This document shows positions 10,375-30,400 of a stretch of DNA of 64,000 nucleotides, piece by piece. The stretch covers positions 1,860,001 to 1,924,000 of the forward strand of contig OZ017759.1 of NCBI GenBank assembly GCA_963969365.1, written 5' to 3'. This DNA comes from Asterochloris sp. CNOR1 (taxonomy: Eukaryota > Chlorophyta > Trebouxiophyceae > Trebouxiales > Trebouxiaceae). How positions within the stretch are numbered: the first letter of the stretch is position 1; the number at the start of each line of letters is the position of its first letter. The notes below the pieces were generated by a model. The model ran no database searches. It was not told where the DNA came from and saw only the letters and a program-made list of their open reading frames with translations. The translations under genes were made by a program, and so were the position numbers.

Positions 10375-13300
10375 TCAGAAGTTCAAAAGAATGTCCTGAC
10401 CCGTTGCTGGCCCTGGCAGAACCTCGCCAATCACGGCTGCTTCCAAGTAGCCAGCAGCATGCAGGATGTCCACCAGCAGCCCAGCAGACTTGGCTGGAAT
10501 GCCTGCCAGCAAGCCACCACCTGCACAGCAGTAGCTCAGGCTCTTGCAGATGGTGCTGGTCATGTGCATGACAGCTGTACAGACTTGGCCCAAGCCCTCA
10601 CCTGTCTGTGGGTCTACAAGCAGAGGCCATTTTGCATTATGTACAGCCTCGCTGGAGTTCTGCACAGCCGCTGAGGCCTGGGCATTCTGCCCATGAATGC
10701 TGCTCAAGGCGCCAGCCTGAATGCACTCTGCGGCGCCCTCCAGGACAGGAATGGCTGCAACATTTAGCTGTGCTGTCACCTGCATGGCGTGACCACTGTC
10801 GGAACGTCTGCAGCAGTCCAGCTGAGGGGAGGAGCACTGCTGGACCACGCCTCACCTGGGAAGGCCTGGTCATTTCTGTGAGATGGCCCAGCAGTCCAAA
10901 CCCAGTCACGTCTGTGCAGGCTGTGGCGCCTGCTGCCTGGAGGGCCTCAGCTGCTCTCTGGCTGCTCTGCTGCATGCTTCGGAGAGCCCCTGCAGTGTGA
11001 AAATCAGCAGTCCAGGTACCGGGTGGTGCTCGGCCGCTGCAGGCTGCTGTCATGTGCAGGCAGTGGAGCAAGCTTGAAGTGCAATTCATAACCAGTCATT
11101 GATCTGTCTGCAGCACAGTACGGTGGCAGCCTGACCTGTGACCCATCTGCCACGCGCCTTCCCCCGCATGGCAGCAGCCATGATGGTGCCAGTGCCCAGG
11201 GGCTTGGTCAGAACCAGCACTTGCCCTGCCTGCAGGCCGCCCTTGGTCATCAAGGCGTCCTCCCTGGCAGTCCCTGTGACAGAAAAGCCTGCGAGAAAGA
11301 CCATTGCTGGGAAAGACAGACGGTAAGATGATCCTGGCGGCTCCTGCTGCAAGCCTTCCTGTGGCAGGTAGATGCTCAGGTGCATTGCATACAAACCCTC
11401 CCAGGCCAGCCTGGGATGCAGTGGTTCCCCACGCGAGGCTGGTTGCTGCTGCAGCGGGCCAAGGCAAGGCCCACAGGTGGCCACCAGACAGCCTCACCCA
11501 GGGACAGCTGCTCTGCCTCGCAGGTGTGGCCCCCAGTCAAGGCGCATCCTGCGTCCTGCAGCACCCTGGTAGCGCCTGCCATCATCTGGAAAAGCTCCTC
11601 CTCCACTTTGGCATCCAGGCCATGGGGCACGGCAGCGATGGCCAACGCTGTTTCAGCCTTGGCACCCATGGCCTGACAGTCCTGCAGGGACCAGTGTCAT
11701 CCGTCAGGAGGCAGGCGGCGCCGTATGCCTGCACAAGCAGGCAGAAAGCAAGCACGGGCATGTTGCACAGAGTCTGCTCCTGTGCACAAAGCTCAGCCAG
11801 GTTGTCCACAGCACCCTGCTGCTGGGCGTGGCAGCTGGCATGGCCTCACAGGCCAAGATCAGAGGAGGCAGCAGCCATCAAACACTGGGCAGCTCACCCC
11901 AAGGGCATGGTTGGCAGCAATGGCGCCGAAGACAAAGGGGTCCTCTACAATGGAGCGGAAGAAGTCCACTGTCTGCACCAGTACATGGCCAGGCGGCGGG
12001 GGCCGCATCACTGCTGCGTCGTCAGGGCTGCCCAGCCCCATCAGGACGGAGGGGTGCTGCAGGGGCTCAGGCAGCCGCGCAAGGGCTCGGGACAGGACGC
12101 TGGCGCCCACCTGCAGTGCCCCCAGACAAACAGTGCGGGCTGGCTGCTCTCATGGGTCATGCTGAGCCCAGCACCTCCAAAGGTCGAGTCCAGCCAGGGC
12201 AGACCTCAATCTCACCTTGCCACCGCAGCCGCCGCAGCGCATCTTGGCGGCAGACAGGGCTGCCAGCGCCTGCGGCCCTGAAGCTGCTCCCACCGCCTGC
12301 GACATCCTTGCCATAGCAGCAGGGTCTGGTGGCTTCATGCCCCTGCTGCGCTGGGCACCTGCCTCTGCAGGGCCGTCAGACATGAAAGGGAGGTCATCGC
12401 CGTACTTCCGCATCCACCCACGGTCGATCCAGTCTTTCACTGTCCACAGCCAAGAGCCCTGCACGTGCACAAGGTCAAGAGTTGTTGTGCAGGTTTGGTG
12501 TGAGCCTTTCAGCGCTCTCATAGCTCTACTCACCTCCAGACAGAGCCAGCCCTTGGTGCCTACGACGTGCTTGGTGCCCGTGGTAATCAGGCTCAGCCAT
12601 GTTGTCTGGGGCACATAGGGCACCAGCTCCTCCCCCTTGAACTGCCTGCAGGGCGAACACAACACATGACTGCACCACACAACCTCAAAAAAGGACGAAG
12701 CCTTCAGACCACCTTAGGCCCAGCCACACCAGTGGAATGACTGGTGGGCACACTCTTCAAGCACGCGCAGCTTGGGCAGAGCCCAAGCCGCAGCGCACAT
12801 CCTTCATGCTCAGGGCCCAAGGTCTGACTTCTTCATCAAGCTTGGGAAGCTTGCCTGTGTTAGAGAACACGACAAGGTGTATCAACTACAATACAGATCC
12901 TGTACAAGTATAGTCGATAACCACAATGAGATTTTTGAAATGACATACAGCCGAACGACCTGTCGACCTCGAGTATGGGGCGCTCACGAAAATTGCCGAA
13001 TAGGCGGCAAAGGGTCTGGGGAGGCCTCACCTGCGCAGGTTGACTGTGAGGGGCAGCCCTGCTCTGACGGCAAAGACGCCAGCTTTAGGGCGCGGGTATA
13101 TCACTGAGGTGGCCACGTCGCCACAGGCAAAGATGTTGGCTGGCCCCGCCGCTGCTTGAAGGCACTCATTGATCAGGATGAAGCCTTTGTCGTCTGCAGC
13201 ACACCACCAGCAAGCCCTCAGCAGTGAGTGAATCCGGCAACGCAGGGCCGGCTCTGTGGCGCATGCGATGCTGCAGTCACCTAGCTGGAGGCCTGTGTCT

Positions 13301-14843
13301 GCCAGCCAGGGTGCTGCGCTGGCCTGTGTGCACCACAGGCACTCGTCAAAGGGTATGCGCTGCCCGTCCCCTGTGGTGAGCCATCCCTGCTCCACGCCTG
13401 TGACCTGTGCGCCCTCAAGCAGCTCCAGACCTTGGTCCTGCAGCAGAGGCACAGCAGCTATAAGCTTCGAGGCCTTCTGAGGGACTGTAAGGGTACTGCT
13501 GCCAACATGCAAGGGACAAAAAGGTGTCACATGCAGTGCAAAGCGTGACAGTGTGCCAAGTTGCGCTTGAGCACTGCATGCAGCCGATCAGCCTGACAGC
13601 CTGATCACCTGCATGATGCGCAGAAACTTGCGGCGAGCTGCCGGGGTGTGCCCCTGCAGGATCTCGCCGCCGCTGAGCAGCTTCACCAGGCACCTCCTAT
13701 CCGCAGCATGGCCAGCTGCAGCACGCTCAACCTCCAGGCGGTGATTCAGAGCTAGGCTGAGCTCCACGCCCCCCGCACCCCCACCCACTACACACACCTG
13801 CACATGTGGCGCGGGTGACAGATAGGAGGAGCAGGCCGCCACACAGCTGCCACACCGGCTGTTTCAGGCAAGCTGCTGAACCAATGGCATCCCAGGCAAT
13901 GCTGGCCTTGGGAGCTGACTACGCAGCTGGCCGGCAAGTGTACGACATCCTCAACAGCAACGGCTTTCAGAGGTGCTCACCACGAGGGGTTCTGCGCTCG
14001 TCTTGCAGTGGTCCAAGACCTTGTGGAATCTGTCCACAAATCTGCACAGCAGGTGCCTTGCTCTCACTGGTGCAATGGCCCTCTCAAAGCGCAAGGGCTC
14101 CATGCCTGAGCCTCTGCGCCAACCAAGGCAGACATGCATGTGCTGGCGATGCCTTGCGCTGCAGGATGGGGCACCTGGAGATGGGCTTGACAGGTGTGGC
14201 CACTGAGCTGGAGCCAGGGACGGCTCTGCTGGGCGTGATTCCTATATCGACACTGAGAGCATCATATGCCACAGCAGGACGACCCTGCAGCTGTACGCGC
14301 TGAGTCTGCAGCAGGCAGCGCGCCTTCATCAGCTCAGCATCTGGGCCCTGTGCTGGCTCTGAGCTGGCAGGCACAGCAGTACTGGAAGCGGAAGTCTGCA
14401 TGTAGCATCAAGCTGCAGAATACCTTGGTGCAGATGCCGATGGCCTCTGCGTGTATGAGCCTTGCGCGGGCAAAAGTGCACAGCCTGGCGAGGTCCACAT
14501 GGCACTCGTCAAAGGTGTACCAGCCAGCCACGAAGCCAGGCAGCATGCCGCTGCAACACAGGCAGCACTGGCGCTGATCAGCGAATAGGCGCGGTTGAAG
14601 CCCACAGTGTAGTGGCTGGGCAAGCAGACCTGTAGGGTGTGTTGACATCCTTGGTGACCAGTGTCACCCTGACGCCAGGCATTGGCTGCATGCCAAAGCT
14701 GCGCACCACCTCCACGTGGGCATGGCCACCGCCCAGCAGAACCAGGTCCTGTCGCAGGGGAGCAAGTGCTCACTCAGCGGGAGTGACAGACCTGCGCCGA
14801 TCCAAGCTGCAGATACCACCTTCAGGACTGGCACATTCTGCAT
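10375..14843 (-). CDS. selD: Ndh-SelD fusion: pyridine-nucleotide oxidoreductase fused to selenide, water dikinase
   Basis: The N-terminal half is an NADH-dehydrogenase-II-like FAD protein. It has [20 protein letters not shown] near 14745, [19 protein letters not shown] near 14530, [12 protein letters not shown] and ATPVKPI near 14200-14250, a second Rossmann motif [20 protein letters not shown] near 13780, [20 protein letters not shown] near 13360, and IFACGDVA near 13120. A linker ([17 protein letters not shown] near 12400) leads into Sel[12 protein letters not shown] near 12240, [31 protein letters not shown] near 11950, [11 protein letters not shown] near 11520, [19 protein letters not shown] near 10900, and [10 protein letters not shown] then GGLLAGIPA near 10600-10450. 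SelD makes selenophosphate from selenide and ATP. The catalytic position is Cys (TGC), not Sec (TGA). Such Ndh-SelD fusions are known in cyanobacteria and some protists. The stop is at 10375-10377. The first exon and ATG (14843 proposed) are uncertain because I could not make a clean phase with the exon that starts DLVLLGGG. Confidence 0.85.
12660..13020 (-). other. Long, AT-richer intron of the Ndh-SelD gene
   Basis: This lies between the exons encoding [15 protein letters not shown] and [16 protein letters not shown]. The segment from about 12860 to 13010 is visibly more AT-rich than its surroundings and shows no coding signal on either strand. It contains a 12-bp SalI-XhoI-like string at 12962-12973 (see rejected items). 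Confidence 0.5.
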
Positions 14844-15133: not shown

Positions 15134-16536
15134 ATGCCGGTGATCTCTGCTCGTTGTGCAAGACATCTCAGAGCAGTGTTGGTGCAGGCCCAGCAGTCAC
15201 AAGAGCGCACCAAAACTGTTCTGATCACAGGCAGGCTGGAAGCATGAGTTCAGTGTGGCAGGCAGCATCTCTTCTTGCCAGGAATGGACCGTACCAAATT
15301 GCACCAAATGCAGGTGCCTCCCCAGGCGGGATTGGCTGTGCTACTGCAGAGCAGCTGGCCGCCAAGGGCTTTCATGTTGTGCTGGCGTGCCGGGACATGG
15401 AGAAGGGACAGGCAGCAAAGCAGGAGATTGAGTGAGTGTTATGGCATGCACCCACAAGTTGCCCAGCATGGTCCCCCAAGTAAGTGCTGCTTGTACTGCC
15501 GCACAGGGAGGAGGTGGTAGGCAGTCGGGTGGAGCTGCGCAACCTGGACTTGGCTGATTTGGACAGCATCAGGCAGTTCTGCAGAGCATCAGTCGACTTC
15601 GGACATCCCTTGGACGTTTTGATCTGCAATGCAGCGGTCATGGCCTGCCCTGAGCGGTGGCAGACCAAGCAGGTGGGGCTCTCTTCAGTGCCTGGCCCGC
15701 AGCACTGCTGGCGCCCATGACCTCGACCTCTGATTGCCTGCATGCAGGGCTTTGAGCTCCAATTCGGCACCAATCACTTGGGGCACTTTCTGCTGACCAT
15801 GCTCCTGTTACCCATCCTACAAACCCCTGAAGTGTGAGGTGTCACCTCTGTCTGCCTTGAGCTCAGCTCTCAAAACAGGAGGCTCAAACTCTGGGTGCCT
15901 GCCTGCAGGTCTAGTCGAATTGTAAATGTTTCTTCGTTCAGTCACGCAAGCCCGTCCCTGGACCTGGATAACTTGATGAGTGAGAAGAGCTACAGCCCCT
16001 GGGGGGCCTACTCTCAGGTACATAGCCTCTCTGCCCAGCAGTTGCATGGCCAGCATCCTGAACCGATGACCCACATGAGGGCATGACCCAGCATATCCCC
16101 CCACCTGCAGGGCAAACTCGCACAGGTTCTGTTCACCTACGAGCTGGCAAGGCGCCTGAAGCCAGAGTGCAGGCTGACCTGCAATGCTTGCAATCCCGGC
16201 CTGGTCAGGACCAACATTCAGAGGTGGGACGCCTGCCAGACGCTGGTGCCACTGCGCCTCTGTAGCTGGACAAGCTGCTATGGTGCTCGCAGGTTCATCA
16301 CACCCCCCGACATGGAACACAAGACGCCAGATCAAGGTGCAGAGACCAGCGTGTATCTTGCCAGTGCAGCAGAGCTTGAGGGTGTCACTGGCAGGTACTT
16401 CCAGGACTGCGCAGAGAGCCAGTCCTCTGAACTCAGCCATGACCGGGACCTTGCCCTCAAAATGTGGAATGAGTCTAGTAGACTGGTTGGAATTGATGCC
16501 AATTCCCTTCTCCAATCAGAAGATGTTCACGTCTGA
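15134..16536 (+). CDS. Short-chain dehydrogenase/reductase, retinol-dehydrogenase-like
   Basis: This is a classical SDR with a Rossmann fold and NAD(P) binding. ATG 15134 starts a short basic leader ([16 protein letters not shown]), then ERTKTVLIT. The cofactor motif is completed across intron 1 as TGASPGGIG, followed by [17 protein letters not shown]. Further motifs are [11 protein letters not shown] (the NNAG position, near 15620), [20 protein letters not shown] near 15755, the catalytic Ser in [12 protein letters not shown] near 15920, Tyr and Lys in YSQGKLAQ across the intron near 16020-16115, and [12 protein letters not shown] near 16190. The C-terminus ends EDVHV at 16536. Order and spacing fit the RDH11/TIC32/WWOX-like SDR group. 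The substrate cannot be read from sequence. Intron 1 (15231-15313) has a GC donor: exon 1 ends ATCACAG and exon 2 starts GTGCCTCC, the only join I found that restores the glycine motif. About seven exons. Confidence 0.88.
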
Positions 16537-16875
16537 GGAGGATAGTAAAACCCACTACCCGCCATTGGCGATGATTATATAAGATCAGAGATTGCGTGCA
16601 ACACAAAGTCTAAGAGATGTGGTCTCTGCATGATTTCAGTGGTGTAGTAGATATTCAGTGGTGCTTATCAGGTTGGTAGCATCCGCCAGCCACTTTTAGC
16701 ATGCCGGGCCTGAGAGGGTGGACCGGGGTGTTGGGCTGGGTAGGGTGAGGAACTTTCCTTTCCCAAAGGCCATGCAGAGAGTTGGCTTCCTGCATAAAGC
16801 ATGCAACAGTCCGCGTGCAGGTCTGCTGTGGTGCTGTACATTACGCTTGACAATGCAGCACAGGCTTACTGGGGA
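16537..16875 (+). promoter_or_regulatory. Intergenic region upstream of the opsin-cyclase gene, candidate TATA box
   Basis: This roughly 340-bp gap follows the SDR stop. A TATATAAG at about 16577-16584 with an ATTGG (inverted CCAAT) about 12 bases before it is the only core-promoter-like signal I see. It may equally be part of the SDR 3' UTR. Confidence 0.25.
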
Positions 16876-19800
16876 GATGGAAGCCCCGAGGCTGCAGCCC
16901 TCCTTTTTGCAGAAGTCAGTATCATCACATCAGTAGATTGTGTCATCAAGGCCGCTCATGCTCTGATGTAGGGTTGCTCTGCCCTGCAGGTCCCTCAGCA
17001 GTGGTTCAGATATAGTGCAGATTTCTTCCTTGCAGGTTCAGAACAACGCCTTGCCAGACAAGTCCTTTACTTGGGCAATTGCTGTGACTGTGTTTTATGT
17101 TCCCTGCAGCATTGTTTGTTAGTCTGCTGTCAGTGCTCTATGAGGACAGCCCAGCCAAAAAGCAGGTGATGTCCTGGGCTCCTACAGATCTGCAATGCCT
17201 TCTGCTGATTCTGAAAGTAGTGCCCTTCTGCAGGCTGCGGTGCTGTCCTGCCTCATCAAGTCAGTGGCATGCTATGCCGACTGGAAGCTGTCTGTAGATG
17301 GCAAGGGAGTCATCTGGGACTCTGCTGGATACCCCTTTGTGGTCAAGCGCTATGTCAATTTCATGATCACTACGCCCACCATGCTGTGAGCAACAGGCCA
17401 GAATTTACCCTTCCCACCCTGGGTGCACAGACATTTGGTATCCGGTTCCTGCACATAGCGTCTGCACTTGGTGTCTGCATCTGCTTTTGGTGTCTTGAGG
17501 GGCAGGGCAGCTGCTGCTATGCTGATGACCTGGCTTGTGGAAGTTGTTCGCTGGCTGCCTGCGGATTGTGAGCCCTGCTGTTGCTGGGCAAGCTGCCTGG
17601 ATCCAGACTCGACCGTTCACGCAGGTACCTCCTGTCAGGCGTCTCAAGCTTTTCGGTGGGAGAGGTGGGGCTCCTGCTCAGCTGCTGCGCCAGGCCCTTT
17701 TGTATGTTGCGACCTCTCACTCCTTGCTTTTCCAACTGCAGGTGGCAGCTACTGCAGGCATGCAGTGGGGCTGCGTGGTCACTGGGCTGATCGCCTCCCT
17801 GACTTATGGCTTCTGGAAATGTGAGGTGGCAGTGCATGAGCAATGTTGTGGCTGCTACTGGGACCGGCACTGCTGCGTGCAACGTGACGTTCAGCTGCAC
17901 GCTTTCTGCAGGGTTCTGGGTCACTCTGTCCTTTGCGTTCTATGGCCTGGTGCTGCGCGAGATGCAGCGCATGGTCAACTCCGCAGCTAAGGCAAATGAG
18001 GGCACCAAAATGCGCCTGAGAGGGCTCAACTTCATTCACAACTACTCAGGTTGGGCTGCTCTATCACCAGAGGCATGCGGTGGCAGAGAAAGCTGCTGCC
18101 GCAGCAAGACCCTCTTGCATGCAGCGCCAGGCAATCCGCAGATGCAGGAGCAAAATGCCTGTGCATTTGCTGGCCCTGCCTCCTCCTGCTGCCCCGTGGT
18201 AGGATCCAGTGGCGCTGCCTCAATGTCTTAGAGCTTGCCTCTTCTTGCAGTGGTTGCTTGGAGTCTGTTCCCGGCAGCCTGGGTTACGGGGCACCTTCAC
18301 TTGACAAGCATTGGCGATACAGAGCTGCTCATGATGGCTGGGAATCTGGTGGCTAAGGTGAGTGCGGGCTCAAGCAGGTGCAACCTGAACAGGTAGGCAG
18401 GAGTTGTAGACTGGATCTGCGCGATGGGTTGGCCTGGCTGTTGCAACTTTCTTACTTAGGACATCTGCATGATGCCCAGCCTTTAGTGGCCTGGAGGGCA
18501 GACAGCCACTTTCTAGCCAAAGGTCCACTGCTGCTGCAGCTGCTGTACAGCTCCGGCATCATGTATGACAACTTTGTCACCGTCTCGGAGCGGAGGGATG
18601 CAGCAGCTGCCGAAATTGAGCAGCGCCAGCGGTTGGTGATGATTACAGAGCTTAAGTCAGCCATGCAGCGAAAGGACAGCTTCCTGTCAGTCATGAGCCA
18701 CGAGATGCGTACTCCGCTGAATGGTGTTATTGGTGGGTGCTGCCAGCCTCACATAGCCCTGCCAGCCTGCTGTGCATGCTGCAGCACAGCCTGAGTGCTC
18801 TGCTTGCGCAGCTTACGGGGAAGTCATGCTGCAGCCCCTCCTCAATGTGGGGCACAACAGCATCAGGGCAGTCCAGCAGCTGGTGCCCAGCTTGATTAGC
18901 CGCGCATGGAGTTCAGCAATGCCACATGCTGACGCAGCAACACCCTTTGTGACTGGCAGGGCATTGCCTGCAGGTCTCACTGATGCGCTGCTGAAGGGGA
19001 GCAGTGGCAAGATGACAGAGAAGGCTGTGAAACTGCTGCACACCATCCACGACAGCGCCAACTACCTGCTGAACCTGTGAGTCATCTAACTGAGGTGCTT
19101 GTAGAGGCATCGGTGTCGGTGCATCCCAAGACATGAGCCAGTGCTGCTGCTGCCTGAGGCATGTGTGCAGGATCGGCCGGTGGGCTCCTGAGCGGCTCAG
19201 CACAGCTGCCGCCTGGGGTCTGTTTGCACCCATCTCAGCTGGACTGCTGCAGCCTGAGGCATCCTGACCTGCGCCAACATAGTGCTCTACTTGCCCAGAC
19301 CATGTCAGACAGTGTCAAGCCATGGTGCTGTCACCTGTAGGGTGAATGACGTGCTGGATGCAGCAGCCTTCAGGCATGGCAAGCTCAAGCTGATGGTGCA
19401 GCAGGTCAGTACACGCCAGACAGCTACTTTAGCGCTGAGCTGCTGTCATGGCATTCAATGGGCTGCACCTGCAGGCTGTGCGGCTGACATGGCCTGCCCC
19501 GCAGACGTGTGGTGCACTGTCCAGGTGAACATCTCGGAGCTGGTGAACACAGTCTTCTCCAACGTGCTGACCATGCAGCAGGAAGGGGTCAAGCTGCACG
19601 CTGAGGTGGACCCTCGGATGCCCATCATCATTGCCGACAAGGACAGGCTGACTCAGGTGATGCACACTGATGCCTGGGTGGTGAAGCAGCCGCTGTAGCT
19701 GGTGCGCCTGCTTGCTGCTATCTGCCTCTCCCCCAGCTTCCCAGGTTTTATTCTATTCTACTTGGATCCTCTAGGCCAGGCCTTGCTGGTCACTGCTTCA

Positions 19801-22800
19801 TGCCCTGCAGCCCTCAAGCCACCACAGTACCACCGCCTGCAGGTTTTGTACAACATTGTGGGGAACGCGCTCAAGTTCACATCGATGGGTACTGTAGGTG
19901 TGCTAGTGAAACCATTTGCTGACATGAAATCTGTGGTCTTCACAGTTGCGGATACAGGGATAGGAATCCCTGAGAAGAACTTCTCCAGCATCTTTCTGCC
20001 GTTCGAGCAGGTGAGGCATGTGCGCTGCTTGGTGAGAGTCTGCTGCTGGCTCGTGTCCTTGCTTTGCTACAGGCACAGCAGCGACAGGTATGGGGACGCT
20101 GCTTGCTCATGATCCTGACAGCAGGGGGCCATTCAGAACAGTAATGGCTGCACTTGGCCGTGCCATTAGCCACTCAATGCTGCCTGCTGGCTGCAGCTGG
20201 ACATGTCCCCTACCAGGAAGTATCGCGGCACTGGCCTGGGGCTCAGCATCTGCAAAGTGCTGGTGGAGGCGCATGGCGGATCCATTGCTGTCTCATCGGA
20301 GGTTGGGGCGGGGTCCACTTTCACTTTCACGCTCCCTGTGGAACCTCCCCAGCCGCACAGCATACGTGGTGATGGCAGGCTGTCCAATGATGGGAGCCTG
20401 CTGCCCAAGCCAGAGGAAGGTGTGTGCAGATGCCAGGATTCGGTTGCCAGGCTCTTCCTGTCTGACTGCGCAGGGCATGTCGCAAGCTGACAGCCTGCTT
20501 CTACAGCCTCAGGGGCACGTGTGTGCAGCGTGCATGGGGTCAACCAATGACTGCTTGAGGCTGCACACAGCTAGCTGCCCTGGCTCTAGGCAAGCGTGCT
20601 GCACACCCCCTGAATGCTCCTGCAGGCTCCCCCAGCAGAGCATCCTTGCAGCTGGCCAACCCTGAAAAAGCAATATCTGCCGGCACTGGGGGCAGTGTGG
20701 CCGCTGGCAAAGGGCCCCTGTCTCCCTTAGGAGGCATAGGGACACCAAGTGCAGGTGGAGCTACAGAGTCCAAGCTGAAGGTGTCTCTGCATCACGGTGA
20801 GGCGATTGTTAAAAACTGCTGACAGGCTTGGAGTTTGATAGGGATGGCTATGGCAGCACATCCCCAGGCCTGTGCAACTGCCCAGTTCAGTTGTGCTGGT
20901 GGTCTGGTTGAGACTTGCTGTCCAACACTGTTGCTGTGATTCTTAATGAGGTGTGAAAGGCCTGACTGGGGGGTGCAAGCATGGCTTTGGTCGGTGCAGA
21001 TGACTTTTCATTGCCCTGCTCTGTAGTGGCCAGCTGCCAAGCCCTGGACAGGCGCAACAGCAGCACCACCCCCCACAGCCGACATGCCTACACGCTGGAC
21101 CATGTCAAGCCCCTGCACGGGCAGGAGAATGGCACCTTTCTGGTGCTGAGTGTGGATGACGACCCTGTGGCTCACCTGGTGCTGCGGGAGATGCTGACGC
21201 CAGAGGGGTACGAGGTGAGGCGGGTGGCATGGCAAGTGCCTGAGGGGTTCAGCGTGACTGTCCTTGCATCTCTGAGCAGTCTGTGCCTTCAGAGAAGGCA
21301 GCATATGCAATGGGTCTTTGGCCACCGCGGCACACTCAACACTGTGAAGATGCCAGCCCCAGAGGGCAGGGGTGTGAGCGATCTGGATGCCGCTCATTTG
21401 GGCTGCCTGCCCTGCATTGCCTCCAGGTAGCAGTCATGGCGTTTCAGCAGGCTCCACACTAGAGCTGCACTCACTGTCAGTGTAGCCAGCACCATGTGCC
21501 TTTGGGAGAGTGCACCCCCTGCGGCCTGCAGGTGCACTCAGAGCTGGATCCCCAGAAGGCGCTGCAGTGGGTGGCGGCCTCCCCCTTCCTGCCCGACATC
21601 GTCCTCGTGGACTGCATGATGCCAGGTGGACACACCAGACCTCACCAGCAGTGCATGCTGCCCACACCTGCAGCCAGGGCATGCTGCGCCAGCCTGACCA
21701 GCAGCGCATGCTGCTGAAGCCTGAGTTCAGGGCATGCTGACTTCCATCGGGCCCACTCTGGCACTCACCCCACTCCTGCCTGGTGCCTGCAGGCCTCACG
21801 GGGTATGAGGTGAGCTGCTGCACCACTGTGGCTTTGGCCAGTCCACTTCCGCTGCGATGGGATGCCTGTCGACATGCTGTCTGCCATTGGATGCAGCTGC
21901 ATGCCCTCTTCCTGGTGCTGACTGTCTTGCCTGTGCATGTCTGCTGCAGTTCACTGCCAAGCTGCGCGAAACTGTCCCCCGCACACTTGTGCCAGTTATC
22001 ATGGTGTCGGCCAAGGCTGAGGGCACCCTCATCAAAAATGGCTTTGATGTCGGCTGCAATGACTTTGTAAGGTGGGCTCTGCTGCTTGATGGCGACCCTC
22101 TTGCAAATCAGATTGGAGGGCTCACCACTCCAGGCTGCACTTTTGCGGCATCAGGTAGGCACTCTTGGCTCCTGCATAGAAGGCCCCCGCATCTGCCAAT
22201 TGCCAAGCCTGCACCTGTGCAGTTTCAGCAGTTGCTCCAGCAAGCCCTCCCTGCCAGCTTTTGCCATCATCAGTCAAACAGCAATGGCGTTAGTGGGACC
22301 TGAGCAGCACTTTGCTCACATGAGACATGGGCTGGGCACCCACCGCGCGGCATGATGTGTTTGTCAAGCCACACTTTTGAGCCACACACACCACTCGCAG
22401 TCTGCTGGCAAAGTGCCAACTTGAACAGCATCAGATGCACCATGCCCTTTACATTGGGACTGCCCTGCCTGCACCAAGTTGGTGGTGCTTGTGCTGGTAC
22501 CCAAGAAACAGGTCCCACCCAGTGCTGCAGCCAAGGGTGGCGTGAGACCTGCTCCTCGTCTGGGCTGCCTGCAGGAGCCGGTGGTGCAGACCCTCAGGGC
22601 TTGCAGTCTGATGTGCATGGCACAAGACCAGCAGGGGTGCCCCACATGGCGTGAGGTGTGGGCCCTGTCATGCCTGCAGCAAGCCAGTGATGGCAGAGGA
22701 GCTGCTGACGCGGATGGCTACCCACCTCGATCTGCGACAGGACGCGCCCGGGTGGATGCAGATCATCACTGGGGGGCCCAGCAAGCTGGACAACGAGGCC

Positions 22801-25800
22801 CTGCGCCTGCTGAGGAGCATCCTGCCCGACAGGATCATCCGCCGCATGAAGGAGGTACTCAGTCTCTTGCACTGTGGGGCTGGCTGCGCAACTCTGCTGC
22901 AGCACGCTCATTTGGTGGAGGCTGCTTGCTGCATGTGCAGGCTGCTACAGCACATGCATGTGAGGGCTGGCTGGCGGCCGCTGCAGCTCTGCCTTAGGAG
23001 CTTCTCGTCATGTGTCTAGTGCACACAAGCTCTGTGAGTAACGGCCTGTTGGCAGCATGTGCAGCTTTGACTTGAGGCCTTAAAACAATGTGTGCATGGA
23101 GTCTCAAGGTAGAGTGCAACCTGGGTAGCCCACACTGGCTGCTTGCTCTTTGCCTCCGCAGCTGCTGTGCTATCCAGATGACGACAGGCTGTACGCATCT
23201 CAAGATGGTGTTTGCAATCTGCAGGGGCAGACGCTCATAGCAGACTCACACCCCAGCGTCTGCATCCTTTTTGCGGGTGGGTTACCAGCTGAAGCACCTG
23301 CTGTGATGTGCACCGTGTCCCTGGCTGTCACAACCCTTTGATGCCTTGGACGCAGACATCTGCAACTTCACTCCCCTGTCATCATCCATGGCCACGGCTG
23401 AGGTCTTTCTGCTGCTCAGGTGGGCATCTGCATCTGCGGCTGCTGCCCAGCCTGCACATGCATGCTCAGCAACAGCGTGCAGTGCGGCAGACCAGATTGC
23501 TGCTGTGCTGGCTCAACTTTCAACCTGTTCCCTTGCTCTGCAGCAACCTATTCTCCCTGTTTGACAAGCTGACGGACCGCCACGGTGTCTACAAGGTTGA
23601 GACCATTGGGGACTGCTACATGGCCTGTGCAGGTGGGATTTCCCTGCCACCAGCTGGCTGCAACCTATGTGGCCATCCCGGTCACCCAGGCACCTTGTTG
23701 CTGCTGCTGCCCCTGGGGACAATTGAGGCAAGCCTCCAAATGATTGCACCCCAAGTGGCTGCTGAACGCGACTCCATATCGCCTGAGGCAAATGGTGGCC
23801 TGCACCTCCCTGCTGCTGGTGCCACCCTGGCTTTCAAAGGAACCCCTTTGTGCTGCTGCAGGGCATGACGAGGACGATGACAAGAAGGCCAAGGGCTCGC
23901 CTACACAACGCATGCTGGCCATGGCTGTGGACATGCTGCAGGCGGTGCAGGATCTCACGGTGCCCAACGGGGGCAGCGTGCGCGTACGCATCGGCATGCA
24001 TGTGGGGCCCGCCTATGCCGGGTGGGTGCCAGGGGTTTGCTGAGGAACAACAGCACTTGGGTACACAGCTGCAGGGCTGACTTTTGAAGATCCCTTTGGA
24101 TGTGCTGCTGCACCTGCAGCGCATGGCGTATACCACACATGCTACTCAAGCTGGCCTAGCATTGACTTGCTGCTGCTTAGCCCCTGTGCAGTCTGCAGGG
24201 CAGGATCTGCTGCCCTCGACCTGCCGATCTGCTGCAGGGTGATCGGTCAGAAGTGCCCACGCTACTGCTTTCTGGGAGACACAGTCAACACAGCCTCGCG
24301 CATGGAGAGCAACGGGTTCCCCATGACCATCCACCTGAGTGACGCAGCCCACAGGGAGCTGCTGATGTGCATGGATGGCAGCAGTTTTGCGCCGCTGGGC
24401 AAGCGGGCCATCAAGGGCAAGGGGACCATGGAGACATTCCTGGCCAAGGTCTGGCCTGCACTGCACTCTGCTGAACAAAAGGCATGGGCTGCAAGGGGCT
24501 GGGGCTCCAGCTCAGCATGGCCTGCATGTGGAGACACTCCTGGGCAGCATGAGTTGAGGCTGCCCTGCACTGTGGCTGCAGGCCACTGGGAAGGTATCAT
24601 TTTATCACTGTTTTACCAGGCAGGCTCCTGGCTGAGATGTGCCAGCAGAACGCTGCTGACTCATGCAAAGCATGCCCAGCTCAGCAGTGCCCATGGCAGC
24701 TTTCTGGCCACAGTGGGCCTGCTCAGTGCTGGGGTCTCCCCGGGCGCAGCTGGTAGGATGTTGGCATGGGCTGACTGCGTGGCACTCCTGGCCAACGATG
24801 GGCCAGTGTGCTGCCAGGGTCATAGCACTTGGCAAATTGGGACGAGACAAGCAGCTTTGCCCAGGCGCCAGCTGACTCATAGGCTCAGCAAAGTAGTTCA
24901 TGCAGAGGGCTTTGCTGTCAAGCGCTCCATGCAGCGGGCTCCAGCCTCTGGAGGTGCAGCACCCTAGCTGCCCTTCCTCCGCAAAAGGCCGACTTCAACC
25001 TGCCCTGCAGCAGAGTGCAGGTAAAGAGCTGTGCACATGGTGCATTCAGCCGCAGGCATCCTGATGTCAGCTGCTGTTCCTGCAGGAGGGCGAGTGGAGG
25101 GCAGCGGTGGAGGCAACCCAGCACCCCAAGCCTGGCAAGCTGAGCAAGATGAGGTCTTTGCTGCCTCTCATCCCTGCCTTGGAGGTGAGGCATGTTTGGC
25201 CAGTGCACAGGCTCGTCCCATGCAGGGTTGTGCTGCTGGCAGCAGCCCTGCGAATCAAGGCGGCGTTGCCTCCACCCCTTGATGTTGTCAAAGGGCGCTC
25301 CCTGCATACAGTCATGCGTACCTCGCTACAGGCCATGCTCCTTGTGGGGAGAAGTATGCTGCCAAAAACTATGCTCGGCCAGAACTTGCAAGGGTGTGGT
25401 ATGCTTGGTGCAGGCGCGCGGCGGTGATGCCTCAGTGCAGCCAGGCATGGCGGGGGATGTGCATGCCGCAGCCAAGCAGGCTGCTAATGCTGGCTTGCCA
25501 GCCTTAGCAGCCAGCTCGCGGCATGCCGCCAACGCTGAGGGCGCAGCGGCCTCTCGCATGGCCTCCGAAAGTCCTGCAGCCGTCCTCAGCCCGAGTAGGG
25601 ACGGCAGCCAGGCCAGCACCCTGCAGGCTCAGCTGGAGGCTCAGCAGCATGCGCTGGCTGCAGCCAGGGCCACGGCAGATGCGCAGCTGCAGCAGGTGGG
25701 CAGCAGCATCTCTGCAGCTGTCTACAGCCCACCACCAGAGAACATGGTTGCCTGTTGTCTGTGAGCTGGGATGCCACAGGCCTGCATCACCTGGACTGCC

Positions 25801-27004
25801 TTCCTTGTGGGTTGTGGACTTTCTGAGGGATCCCACACTAAAAGCTGGCTGACACCACAAGTGCCGTGGTTATGGCTGTGTGCCCACCCAAGCGGGTGTG
25901 TTTGGAGTCTGACTGCCTGGCGATGGCACCTGTAACACCTCACTGATGCAGCTGCCGTGTGGCTGCCCTGCAGATGCTGCGCGTTCAGGGCCAGCTGCAG
26001 GCGGAAATCCTGCGGCACCAGATGCAGCGGGACCAGGCCTCTGGCTCGACTTCTCGGGTGTCCAGCTTCAGCGCCCTGCCTGGTGAGCAGCCTGTTGTCT
26101 GGCCCCACTGCTTGCATGTGATTGGGCTTCCCCGTGATGACGTGGATGCTGCTGCCATGCATGATGTGTCGATCACTGCTTCATCCTGTCACATTGCATC
26201 CCTGCAGGTATGCCCTGCACCAGAACCTTCTGCTGTCGAGCACTGGACAGGCTTCCCGCCCAGAAAGCGTGGCCTGTACAGTGCTTCCTGCAGGCTGCCC
26301 CACCCTGGAAAGTATGCACCAGGTGCCCTTCTCACCTGCACCCTGTGTGATACTGCAGGTGCAGATGCCATGGCCCACCTGAATGGGGGCGGGGCCCTGA
26401 GCCTGGCCCAGTTGCAGGCGCTGGCTGCAGCTGGCGCAATGGGCATGGACATGTACGGAAATGCTTACCCAACCACACCAAGAGGCTACCCTGGGATGTA
26501 CCCTCCGCCTGGTGGGTACTACTGGCCGCCACCTGGGCCCTACTGGACGCCAGGCCCCAGCTCTGTGGCAGGGGCTCCTGCAGCAGGTGCAGGGCCGGTC
26601 CCAGTGCCGTCCAGTGTCGACCTTGAGCTGCGCCTGAACAGCGCGCCTGTGGCCAGCACGCGGACCTCAGTGGACCGGGGCTCAGGAGATGCCTCAGGTG
26701 ACCTCCTGCCCTGTTTGCCAAGCCTGCCTGCCACCAGCATGGGTGGCCTGTCTCAGCATGCAGCCCTTCCCTTGCTGCCCAGCCCCAGCAGTGACGGCTC
26801 AGAACAATGGTTGTCCCATGCCTACCCATCCCTGGCTGTCTTGGCTGAGGAATTTGGCCTGTTCTGTTCCCAAGGTACTTGGTCCTGCGTGCAGGCAATC
26901 CAGGAAGTCCTGACAAGACTCCAGCTGGGTGGACCAGAAAATTGTTCAAGAAGGTGGGCAAGTCGGGCCATCATGCGCCGCCCAGGAACACCAGCCTCCT
27001 CTGA
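16876..27004 (+). CDS. Histidine-kinase rhodopsin with response regulator and guanylyl cyclase (two-component cyclase opsin)
   Basis: One gene in more than 20 exons. Opsin (17109-18357 and on): helix B/C exon 17234-17385 with [13 protein letters not shown], helix [21 protein letters not shown], helix E exon 17912-18049, helix [20 protein letters not shown], and helix [13 protein letters not shown] with the retinal Schiff-base Lys at 18355-18357. Histidine kinase: [18 protein letters not shown] (His codon about 18699), [33 protein letters not shown]. Receiver: [32 protein letters not shown] (phospho-acceptor Asp near 21612), [12 protein letters not shown], then a conserved Lys in KPVMAEELL. 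Cyclase: [41 protein letters not shown], carrying both metal Asp, the transition-state Asn and Arg, and the Glu/Cys pair typical of GTP-specific enzymes. A Gln/Ala helix and Pro/Gly/Tyr-rich tail end at a TGA at 27002-27004. In Chlamydomonas and Volvox such proteins are light-inhibited, ATP-dependent guanylyl cyclases. The first exon and helix A are uncertain. Confidence 0.88.
25430..27004 (+). other. C-terminal low-complexity tail of the opsin-cyclase
   Basis: After the cyclase domain the predicted protein continues with an Ala/Ser-rich region and a helix-forming segment ([20 protein letters not shown] near 25625, then [18 protein letters not shown]). A Pro/Gly/Tyr stretch follows near 26490 ([20 protein letters not shown]), and a basic end ([15 protein letters not shown]). 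Exon edges are approximate. Whether all of this belongs to the same transcript is inferred from strand, proximity and lack of another start. Confidence 0.5.
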
Positions 27005-27446: not shown

Positions 27447-30400
27447 TCAGTTAGAGAGTGGCGTGTGTTCAAGACCAGCAGCCCTGTCTGAGACAGGGTT
27501 GCTCAACGACCGCCAGTCGTGCCGCCCAATGCTGCGGCGCGGACTGACCTGCTGGAAGGGTGACGGCCCATCAGCAGCCGTTTGCAGCTGGCCCCCCGCT
27601 GCCAGTCCACCCTGCCCCTCTACAGCCAGCTGCTTGCCGCCACTGCCGCCGTCCTTGGCATCTGCCTCAGCCTGCTGTATGAGGAAGTCCAGCCACTGGT
27701 CAGCCAGGGAGTCGTCCCCAGAGGGGCCCCTGTCGCCCACAGGGCCGTGCCCTGCATCCAGCATGCCCCGCACCAACGACAGTGGAGCGCCTGCCACCGT
27801 TCGGATGATGCCTCGCCGCTGCTGAGCCCCCAGGCCAATGCGGCGCTTCTCTTCCTCTGCAGGGCAGCAGCTGCAGACTCTGGACCAGCTGTCAGGTGCC
27901 CTGCGTGTGAAAGGGCCTTGCTTGTCACCCGCTGGAAGGCAGTGACAGCAGGTGGTGCGGGGTTGCAGGCAGCGGCCATCAACTCTGACGCAGGCAGCAG
28001 GTGGGGCCGAAGCCGCCTGCCTCTGCATGATAAGACAAGCACATCGCTTGGTATCGGGCACAGCATCAGCATATGTCAGCTGGAAACTTGATGCCAGAGC
28101 AGTTGTATGCCACACAGCTGCCAGGAGGGTCCACTGTTACCTTTGGGTGCAGGCAACTACAGGCAGGATAGTGCTGCGCGCCAAAAGAAGCCAACCTGCT
28201 TGTTGAGACCAGCACCAGCTCCAAAGCTGGGGTATCACACAGGTACCCACCTGTGAAGCCGAGCATGCGTGCCATGACCTGCAGCACCTCTGCACTGTGC
28301 CCCTTCTCGAAGTAGGTGGTAAGCAGCTTCACGACAATGCGGCGGTCCACCTGGGCACTGCCCTCGGAGGCCAGGGCGCTCATGCGGCGCATGGACTCCT
28401 GCAGGGACCGGCGGAGCATCGCTGCCTCCTCCTGCAGCCGCCCAAACACCATGTCCAACGACAGCACTCAACATGTTGCTGAAGCGTGACATAGGCATGG
28501 CTGCTGGCCCATTTCTGGCCAGCCGTCGGCTCCTGCGAGAAGCTGCACGGCAGGGTGGGCCCCCCCCTGCAGCCACCAGAGCAACTCTGAGCAAAGCCGG
28601 ACTACCAAGTGGCAACCCTGGCTGCTGGCCAGGTGAGGGCTCTGGCAGCATGGCCGCACCCTCCTCCCAGAAGGCAGCAGTTCAGCTGAAGCGGGTCACA
28701 ATGGATGCGTGGATGCTGCCCACTGAGCTCATGCAGCAGATGCTTGACCACGGATGGCCGCATTCTCCTGAAGACTTGCCGCATGGTAGCCAGCATGCAG
28801 GCACAACATGGGCAGCTGGTGAAGTGCTGTGTGTGCAGGCATGCCAGCAGGGGGAGTGTGAGGGACTGATGGCCCCTGCTGCAGCTGGGTCTGGACATGA
28901 ACATCACCCAGGCTGCCCTGGGGTCACCAGAAAGTGCTCAGCGCGAGAGGAGGCAGCACCCAAAACAGGCAGTCAGACCTGCAGCTGCCGGTCGCTGTCC
29001 TTTCGCAGCTGCACGGCATGCCGCGCCTGCTCGGCATCTGCCTGGGCGTCCCGCTGTGCCTGCTGGGCAGCCTCAGCCGCCGCCTGCGCAGCTGCCACCT
29101 GCTGCTGTAGGGCCCCCTGCTGGCACTCTGCGGCTCGCAGCTCCCCCCTCAGGCGCTCAGCCGCCTCGCTCTCAAAGGTCAGCTCCCCCAGAGCAGTCTG
29201 CAGCCAAGCATGTATTCTCAGATTGGACGCCCTGCCAAGCATGAGGACTGCACCGCCTCCCTTGCAGAGGCAGCACAAGGCAGCACTGGGGCCAGGTCCA
29301 TCCCAAGGAACTGGGCTGCCAGACCTGACGCAGCAGTGCTGTCTAACGCACAATGCACCGACACCCCGAACGTCTGATCATGTCGTTGACAAGCTGAGGG
29401 GCGGCCAATGCTGGAGGCAGGGTGTATCAGTGTGCCATGCTGCCAGACGGCACAGTCACAGCTGCAGTGGGGGGCCTGGTGCTTGCACATGACTGCCACA
29501 GCTGTGGGTCCAAGGGCCACAGCCGCTGACCTGCAGGTTGGTGAGCTCTGCATCCCGGGCAGCCACAGCAGCCTCCCAGGCGTGCAAGTCTGTGACCATC
29601 TGCTCCACAGACGCGTTGGCCTCCGCCAGCTCGGTGCGCAGCCTCTGCACCTCGTCTGCAGGTGTGCACGAGCAGGCATAAGTCGACTGTCATTGCTCTG
29701 TGAGGTGCTCTGCCTTTCTGGCTGCAGCGCCACTTGACGACCAGTGCACCCCCAGTCCTGCAGGGCCAGTGCAGATGCCACCTGGTCCACTGGCAGGTCT
29801 CCAGCACACTCACTGAGGCAGCAGCTGGCAGCACAACGCTGGATGCACGACCACATTGTCCTGAGGCCCGCCTGCTGGTGCCGCTCAGCAGCCACATCAC
29901 CAGGGCTGCCAGACCCAGCAGCGGGCAGCACGTGTTGAGCATGGGTGACGGGCTCCTGATGGCTCCTGAGCTGTGCAACAGCATGCACACCTGCCTGATT
30001 GGTCCCGACCGCCGCGGCTGCCCAGCTGTTGCTGCTCAGCAGCCAGAGTGCTGGCCACTGCAGAACCAGCACCTGGCCTCACCTGGCTGGACAGCTCCAG
30101 TATCTGCCTGCTGCTGCGTCTGCTGTTCCGTGGCCAGGCGCGCCCTCATGTCCTCTGTGGCCAGTCTGACCTCTGCCTCCACTCGCCACCGGACCTTGTC
30201 CTCCTCCTCGTCCTGGTCTGCAACCATCTGCTGCTTCAGCCTGCAGCGACGTCAGGGACCTTAGAGAGCCACAGAGCGCAATACAACACACGTAGCAGAG
30301 GGCTTGTCACCACCTGCTGTTTCAGGCTGAAGAGCTCCAGGACGCTCACTGCTGACACGGCATTCTGTGGCAGTGCAGCAGAATGCAGCAGATCTCAGAT

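Follow-up and report, generated by a model that had tools for sequence, protein, structure and literature searches.

The window analysed here, a stretch of 64,000 nucleotides from the green alga Asterochloris sp. CNOR1 (contig OZ017759.1; C14:1860001-1924000 in a genome of 56.4 Mb and 21 contigs), carries on its plus strand one complete gene in which a microbial rhodopsin, a histidine kinase, a receiver and a guanylyl cyclase follow each other in this order. By its residues and their numbers, this gene is AsRh1, which is genuine and was already reported in silico in 2020 (Awasthi et al. 2020, Life 10:259, PMC7693036). By analogy with its characterised relatives, its product is probably a two-component cyclase opsin (2c-Cyclop) of a lichen-forming alga, i.e., an ATP-dependent guanylyl cyclase that would be on in the dark and off in the light. 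The interest lies less in the existence of the gene than in an acidic residue of helix B and in the lichen-alga setting.

The exons were joined by open frame, phase and GT-AG borders from the three plus-strand frames, which gave a 28-exon draft. The final model comprises 31 exons and 1306 residues, and GT-AG borders are found at all 30 introns. Twenty-seven of these exons had been drawn before the public protein P0001 was seen; exons 1, 2, 3 and 6 were set using it. P0001 (1297 residues, source 'lgn') comes from a public contig, the longest being 6,896 nt, and its first match by protein search showed 97% identity across the 500 residues queried. Residues 11-1306 of the model correspond to residues 2-1297 of P0001 with identity at 1296 of the 1296 compared residues, and chance is thus excluded for the 31-exon model. 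P0001 starts with Met where the genome codes GTG (Val10), as an open reading frame caller would set the start, and in the genome an in-frame TAG at 16677-16679 is followed by the ATG at 16701. The span 16876..27004 proposed by the initial annotation was therefore right at its end, since the stop codon ends exactly at 27004, and wrong at its start. Two elements of the draft were corrected: the exon 17573-17624, assigned to the helix C-D link, was replaced using P0001, and an apparent frameshift in helix A turned out to be a missed exon.

The gene spans 10,304 bases of the genome, compared with the 6,896 nt of the contig that codes for the whole protein uninterrupted. Being shorter than the gene, the contig almost certainly derives from spliced RNA, so that opsin and cyclase share one transcript; a letter-identical processed copy is the alternative. 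The contig also exceeds the coding sequence by about 3 kb, which suggests long untranslated regions. A different view would be that two adjacent genes, one for opsin and kinase and one for receiver and cyclase, or else a decayed copy, have been read as one. The linker of about 120 residues between kinase and receiver, which has no Pfam domain, and the many introns could be taken in this sense, but a single frame runs stop-free over the 31 exons, and the presence of the whole protein in one public contig refutes this view unless the contig is an assembly chimera. Such a split or decay is thus extremely improbable. The one-gene proposal of the initial annotation withstood both of these checks, opsin and cyclase being carried together and no premature stop interrupting the frame.

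The domain content was analysed with Pfam on the spliced 28-exon draft, at curated cut-offs. All five expected domains were found above them: Bac_rhodopsin (1.2e-16, 61.3 bits), HisKA (1.9e-15), HATPase_c (1.6e-28), Response_reg (1.1e-22) and Guanylate_cyc (1.2e-50, 172.1 bits). Raw single frames gave only partial matches, seven of the 10 frames having any. Spliced model, Pfam and public contig thus agree on one complete gene with its four modules in order. The opsin had been described as helices B to G with the Schiff-base lysine; the lysine is indeed present, within a GNLVAK motif, and the description was incomplete, as the gene also encodes helix A and one more hydrophobic stretch at the N-terminus. 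Two-component cyclase opsins have eight transmembrane helices and a cytosolic N-terminus. Eight hydropathy peaks above 1.0 were read in AsRh1, with two weaker ones (0.37 and 0.64), but residue 829 of the cyclase also peaks at 1.38, so that hydropathy alone is unspecific. A FLAKG string at about 18510 was rejected as a Schiff-base site, being located in intron 9. The N- and G-boxes of the kinase are present in the translated model. The cyclase domain starts at about the end of exon 21, and the class III residues D820, D864, E860, C934, N941 and R945, to which we ascribe the usual catalytic roles, are all in place. Solved guanylyl cyclases, 3et6 among them, match it strongly. The C-terminal tail is Gln/Ala-rich and Pro/Tyr/Gly-rich, and at E 0.001 the draft yielded no Pfam domain, SAM or other, in this region. 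The coordinates are collected in Table 1.

Table 1. Coordinates of AsRh1, its key residues and neighbouring features, in positions of the window.
Feature	Position	Strand	Basis
Whole gene, ATG to stop (31 exons, 1306 aa)	16701..27004	+	spliced model
Opsin, exons 1-3	16701-16744, 16821-16914, 16990-17035	+	spliced model
Opsin, exons 4-6	17110-17165, 17234-17385, 17625-17664	+	spliced model
Opsin, exons 7-9	17742-17820, 17912-18049, 18251-18357	+	spliced model
Asp96, helix B acid opposite bacteriorhodopsin Tyr57, candidate counterion	17279..17281	+	alignment
Asn122, at bacteriorhodopsin Asp85 position	17357..17359	+	alignment
Asn248, at bacteriorhodopsin Asp212 position	18343..18345	+	alignment
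Lys252, retinal Schiff-base lysine	18355..18357	+	alignment
Histidine kinase, exons 10-12	18540-18732, 18974-19076, 19341-19404	+	HisKA/HATPase_c
His306, phospho-His, exon 10	18699-18701	+	spliced model
Histidine kinase, exons 13-15	19525-19656, 19843-20010, 20197-20419	+	HisKA/HATPase_c
Linker/receiver, exons 16-18	20626-20796, 21027-21214, 21532-21625	+	Response_reg
Asp693, receiver phospho-Asp, exon 18	21610-21612	+	spliced model
Linker/receiver, exons 19-21	21793-21809, 21950-22071, 22680-22854 (Lys745)	+	Response_reg
Guanylyl cyclase, exons 22-23	23225-23276, 23356-23419 (Asp820)	+	Guanylate_cyc
Guanylyl cyclase, exon 24	23544-23632 (Glu860, Asp864)	+	Guanylate_cyc
Guanylyl cyclase, exons 25-26	23862-24021, 24238-24448 (Cys934, Asn941, Arg945)	+	Guanylate_cyc
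C-terminal tail, exons 27-29	25086-25184, 25414-25695, 25974-26082	+	spliced model
C-terminal tail, exons 30-31	26359-26697, 26895-27004	+	spliced model
U3 small nucleolar RNA	12698-12917	-	Rfam Plant_U3
Oxidoreductase-like frame	14578-14769	-	
Short-chain dehydrogenase-like exons	~15250-16540	+	adh_short, below cut-off
Golgin/coiled-coil-like frames	28066-30000	-	

The identity with AsRh1 follows from the residue table of PMC7693036: the eight residues tabulated for AsRh1 (N122, T126, T127, L133, L232, T240, N248 and K252) all agree with the model in identity and number, whereas AsRh2 and AsRh3 are numbered differently. That in silico study lists AsRh1-3 as HisK-RR-Cyc proteins in a residue table and a domain list, and its domain set for AsRh1 is the same as found here, no difference appearing in the sections consulted. 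The "As" of the name probably stands for Asterochloris. The novelty implied by the initial annotation was thus too high, the protein having been tabulated in 2020; the consulted sections of PMC7693036 nevertheless give neither exons, nor transcript, nor helix B acid for AsRh1, and our literature searches found no experimental work on the protein.

The place of AsRh1 in the family was determined from a tree of 33 opsin-kinase sequences with 200 bootstrap trees, the columns of the helix B trait described below being included. The opsin part of P0001, taken as the only query, had matched nothing but P0001 among 3469 candidates, and an alignment search was used instead. AsRh1 belongs to a clade of 2c-Cyclop1 relatives, which holds five of the 33 rows: AsRh1 itself, Pleodorina P0002, Volvox P0003 and P0123, and Symbiochloris P0127 (support 100/100, 100% of bootstraps). 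The Chlamydomonas and Volvox proteins Cr2c-Cyclop1 (Cop6/HKR2) and Vc2c-Cyclop1 are outside this tree; their stand-ins are the Pleodorina and Volvox relatives with the Gln/Asn pattern of Cop6 at positions 85 and 212 (bacteriorhodopsin numbering). The branch with Volvocine relatives bears out the kinship with two-component cyclase opsins suggested at first. Within it, P0127 (Symbiochloris irregularis), from another trebouxiophyte, has His85, Asn212 and a helix B Asp; its predicted cyclase is devoid of the middle stretch, perhaps because of a gap in the gene model.

The two characterised proteins, as described in the sections consulted of PMC6284317, resemble AsRh1 in architecture, in their many exons, in the phospho-His and phospho-Asp and in the intact cyclase. 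AsRh1 is shorter, with 1306 residues compared with 2549 for Cr2c-Cyclop1 and 2210 for Vc2c-Cyclop1 (PMC6284317), and its linker and tail are shorter as well. Cop6 also shares with AsRh1 the Asn at position 212 (PMC7693036). HKR1/Cop5 has the same domain order but differs in its degenerate cyclase, which is devoid of key residues (PMC8006352), and in having Met85, Asp212 and a SAM domain (PMC7693036), in contrast to the intact cyclase and Asn/Asn pair of AsRh1. Its relatives stand elsewhere in the tree, among Met85/Asp212 cyclase rows that include one named chlamyopsin-5, with a helix B Asp; Cop5 itself is not in the alignment. The fungal rhodopsin-guanylyl cyclases BeGC1 and CaRhGC resemble AsRh1 in that an opsin governs a type III guanylyl cyclase. 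They are not known to have a kinase or a receiver, the opsin being joined directly to the cyclase, whereas AsRh1 has both modules. They are activated by light, according to the review sections consulted, and carry acids at both positions 85 and 212 (E254, D380; PMC7693036), as opposed to Asn/Asn in AsRh1.

Grouping with the 2c-Cyclop1 relatives makes an ATP-dependent, light-inhibited guanylyl cyclase the likeliest function of AsRh1. Cr2c-Cyclop1 is indeed dark-active and ATP-dependent, and is inhibited by green light; mutants in its retinal Lys, phospho-His and phospho-Asp showed the expected losses, which established the mechanism (PMC6284317). AsRh1 retains the equivalents of these sites, K252, H306 and D693. 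In the dark, its kinase would autophosphorylate His306 from ATP and the phosphoryl group would then pass to Asp693 of the receiver, which, once phosphorylated, would keep the dimeric guanylyl cyclase producing cGMP. A photon would isomerise the retinal on Lys252 and, by homology to Cr2c-Cyclop1, phosphoryl transfer would be halted, with a drop of cGMP synthesis in the light.

A receptor of opposite sign, in which light raises cGMP, or a bistable one toggled by a UV/visible pair, is rather unlikely. It would fit the lack of an acid at positions 85 and 212 in AsRh1, as a rhodopsin that loses its counterion can more readily hold its Schiff base deprotonated. A precedent exists in switch-Cyclop, the Cop5 opsin on the Cop6 enzyme, which is driven up at 380 nm and down in blue/green light (PMC8006352). 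However, Cop6 likewise has no acid at 85 and 212 and is light-inhibited, with a peak near 540 nm (PMC6284317, PMC7693036), and in the tree AsRh1 stands with the Gln/Asn Cop6-like rows, apart from the Met/Asp rows that include chlamyopsin-5.

Several points weigh against a light-inhibited cyclase of the Cop6 type. The function is argued from sequence and homology. The pairing of AsRh1 with P0127 carries a long-branch warning, and the Volvocine relatives P0002 and P0003 share no more than 43% and 40% identity with P0001 across the full length. Position 85 is Asn in AsRh1, as opposed to Gln in Cop6 and the three Volvocine rows, so that colour and photocycle may differ from those of Cop6. Lastly, the SAM domain tabulated for Cop5-8 (PMC7693036) was not detected by Pfam in the AsRh1 draft.

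In AsRh1, both classical counterion positions are occupied by Asn. The helix B alignment comprises 34 opsin-kinase rows, namely AsRh1 and the PF01036-bearing proteins (P0001 excluded) in the best 120 of 7990 and the best 120 of 7073 matches. A gap in helix B led to the exclusion of two rows: P0062, a truncated sequence, and P0132 (Cys85), where the stretch is absent, probably through a missed exon. Among the 32 rows with helix B data, 31, AsRh1 included, combine an Asp or Glu in helix B with a non-acidic residue at position 85 (Met 26, Gln 3, Asn 1, His 1). In other words, every aligned opsin-kinase with helix B data and no acid at 85 (31 of 31) has an acid at the position of Tyr57, although these rows include many close relatives and represent few evolutionary events rather than 31. 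The exception is P0052 (Mesostigma), with a helix B Tyr and Glu85.

The register was set by hhalign, MAFFT and hmmsearch against the Protein Data Bank, which place the acid opposite the bacteriorhodopsin Tyr with helix B ungapped; we take the aligned Tyr of the solved bacteriorhodopsins to be Tyr57. The solved rhodopsin phosphodiesterase shows the reverse pattern, an acid at 85 and Tyr in helix B, as do two pump-like opsins of the genome that carries AsRh1, one of them with a weak helix B match (E ~1.5); helix B was not found in a third one, which has Asp85. These three pump-like microbial rhodopsins with Asp85 are located on C10 at 2.505 Mb (L027) and on C4 at 2.962 Mb (L028) and 4.067 Mb (L029). 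Within residues 45-261, the acids common to all five clade members are Glu73, Asp74, Asp96 and Glu241; Glu73 and Asp74 would lie on the A-B loop side and Glu241 near the outer end of helix G.

These observations lead to the tentative reading that, in algal kinase opsins, helix B (the Tyr57 position) may have taken over from helix C (position 85) as the site of the Schiff-base counterion, and that in the 2c-Cyclop1 clade, where 212 is Asn, Asp96 may be the one remaining carboxylate close to the Schiff base. Against it stands the small number of independent events. Moreover, an Asp in place of the Tyr has a short side chain, which may lie far from the Schiff base, and in the single-sequence phmmer alignment a gap shifts the register by one, Asp96 then facing the Ser that precedes the Tyr, and Trp97 the Tyr itself. 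A helix B counterion in microbial rhodopsins was not found in the literature searched, which left the HKR1 spectroscopy papers outside its scope, so that newness is not established. The consulted sections of PMC7693036 treat positions 85 and 212, and the only paper found on such a counterion concerns a jellyfish (animal) rhodopsin with a counterion in TM2.

As regards biological context, the initial annotation had supposed a non-flagellate lineage, and had deduced from it a role other than phototaxis. The premise fails because flagellar genes are present. IFT57 was found in the same genome, its best exon (3.3e-27) being over the cut-off (three of 14 control genomes match, none over it), together with a radial-spoke gene (1.7e-16; none of the 14 control genomes). 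Flagellated zoospores and 314 candidate flagellar proteins are reported for Asterochloris (PMC6652019). It is thus very unlikely that AsRh1 is the light-to-cGMP receptor of a non-flagellate alga, with a role that cannot be motility, even if related receptors occur in the non-flagellate Ostreococcus (PMC7693036) and opsin-kinases, devoid of a cyclase domain, were found in Chlorella and Micractinium. A role beyond phototaxis is no longer a deduction and stays a possibility, one already argued in PMC7693036 from non-flagellate and symbiotic algae. In Chlamydomonas, COP6 knockouts showed normal ammonium chemotaxis, whereas COP5 knockouts largely lost chemotaxis (PMC11621555).

The genome holds two further opsin-kinase-receiver loci with an adjoining cyclase exon, at C10 1.944-1.953 Mb and C1 4.435-4.444 Mb (L025/L026). 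Both consist of raw exon matches, and their cyclase would be linked by order and adjacency. The C10 locus has Gln85/Asn212, as tabulated for AsRh3, and the C1 locus Asn85/Asn212, as for AsRh2 (PMC7693036). Read by eye, the helix B/85/212 residues are D/Q/N for C10 and D/N/N for C1, the C1 Asp depending on an assumed splice. In the receiver match at C1, LSVDGQPLC stands in place of the LSVDDDPV of AsRh1; intron read-through or an altered phospho-site may be the reason. In total, at least 13 cyclase matches were grouped into seven loci, three of them opsin-linked, though some weak exons may have escaped detection. With 36 matches, exons of cyclic-nucleotide phosphodiesterases are abundant, so that cGMP can be removed.

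Around the gene, the window contains a full-length U3 small nucleolar RNA (102.9 bits) and, directly upstream of the opsin, short-chain dehydrogenase-like exons with a weak match in one of three raw frames. The latter was the only Pfam match among seven neighbouring raw frames. The minus-strand frames downstream, which we take to resemble a golgin/coiled-coil protein with a GRIP-like end, gave no Pfam match in three raw frames. Nor did the other minus-strand frame, presumably akin to the FAD/NAD-binding start of a pyridine nucleotide oxidoreductase.

With AsRh1, a complete 2c-Cyclop backed by a contig is available from an alga that is probably a lichen photobiont, beyond the Volvocine algae of the functional work; it may have a role in zoospores or in the lichen. 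Through the helix B acid, a puzzle of the family, visible-light function with no classical counterion, becomes a matter of a single residue. Should this acid act as proposed, microbial rhodopsins would have a counterion geometry other than the classical one, and the green absorption of Cop6-like receptors that have neither classical acid would be explained.

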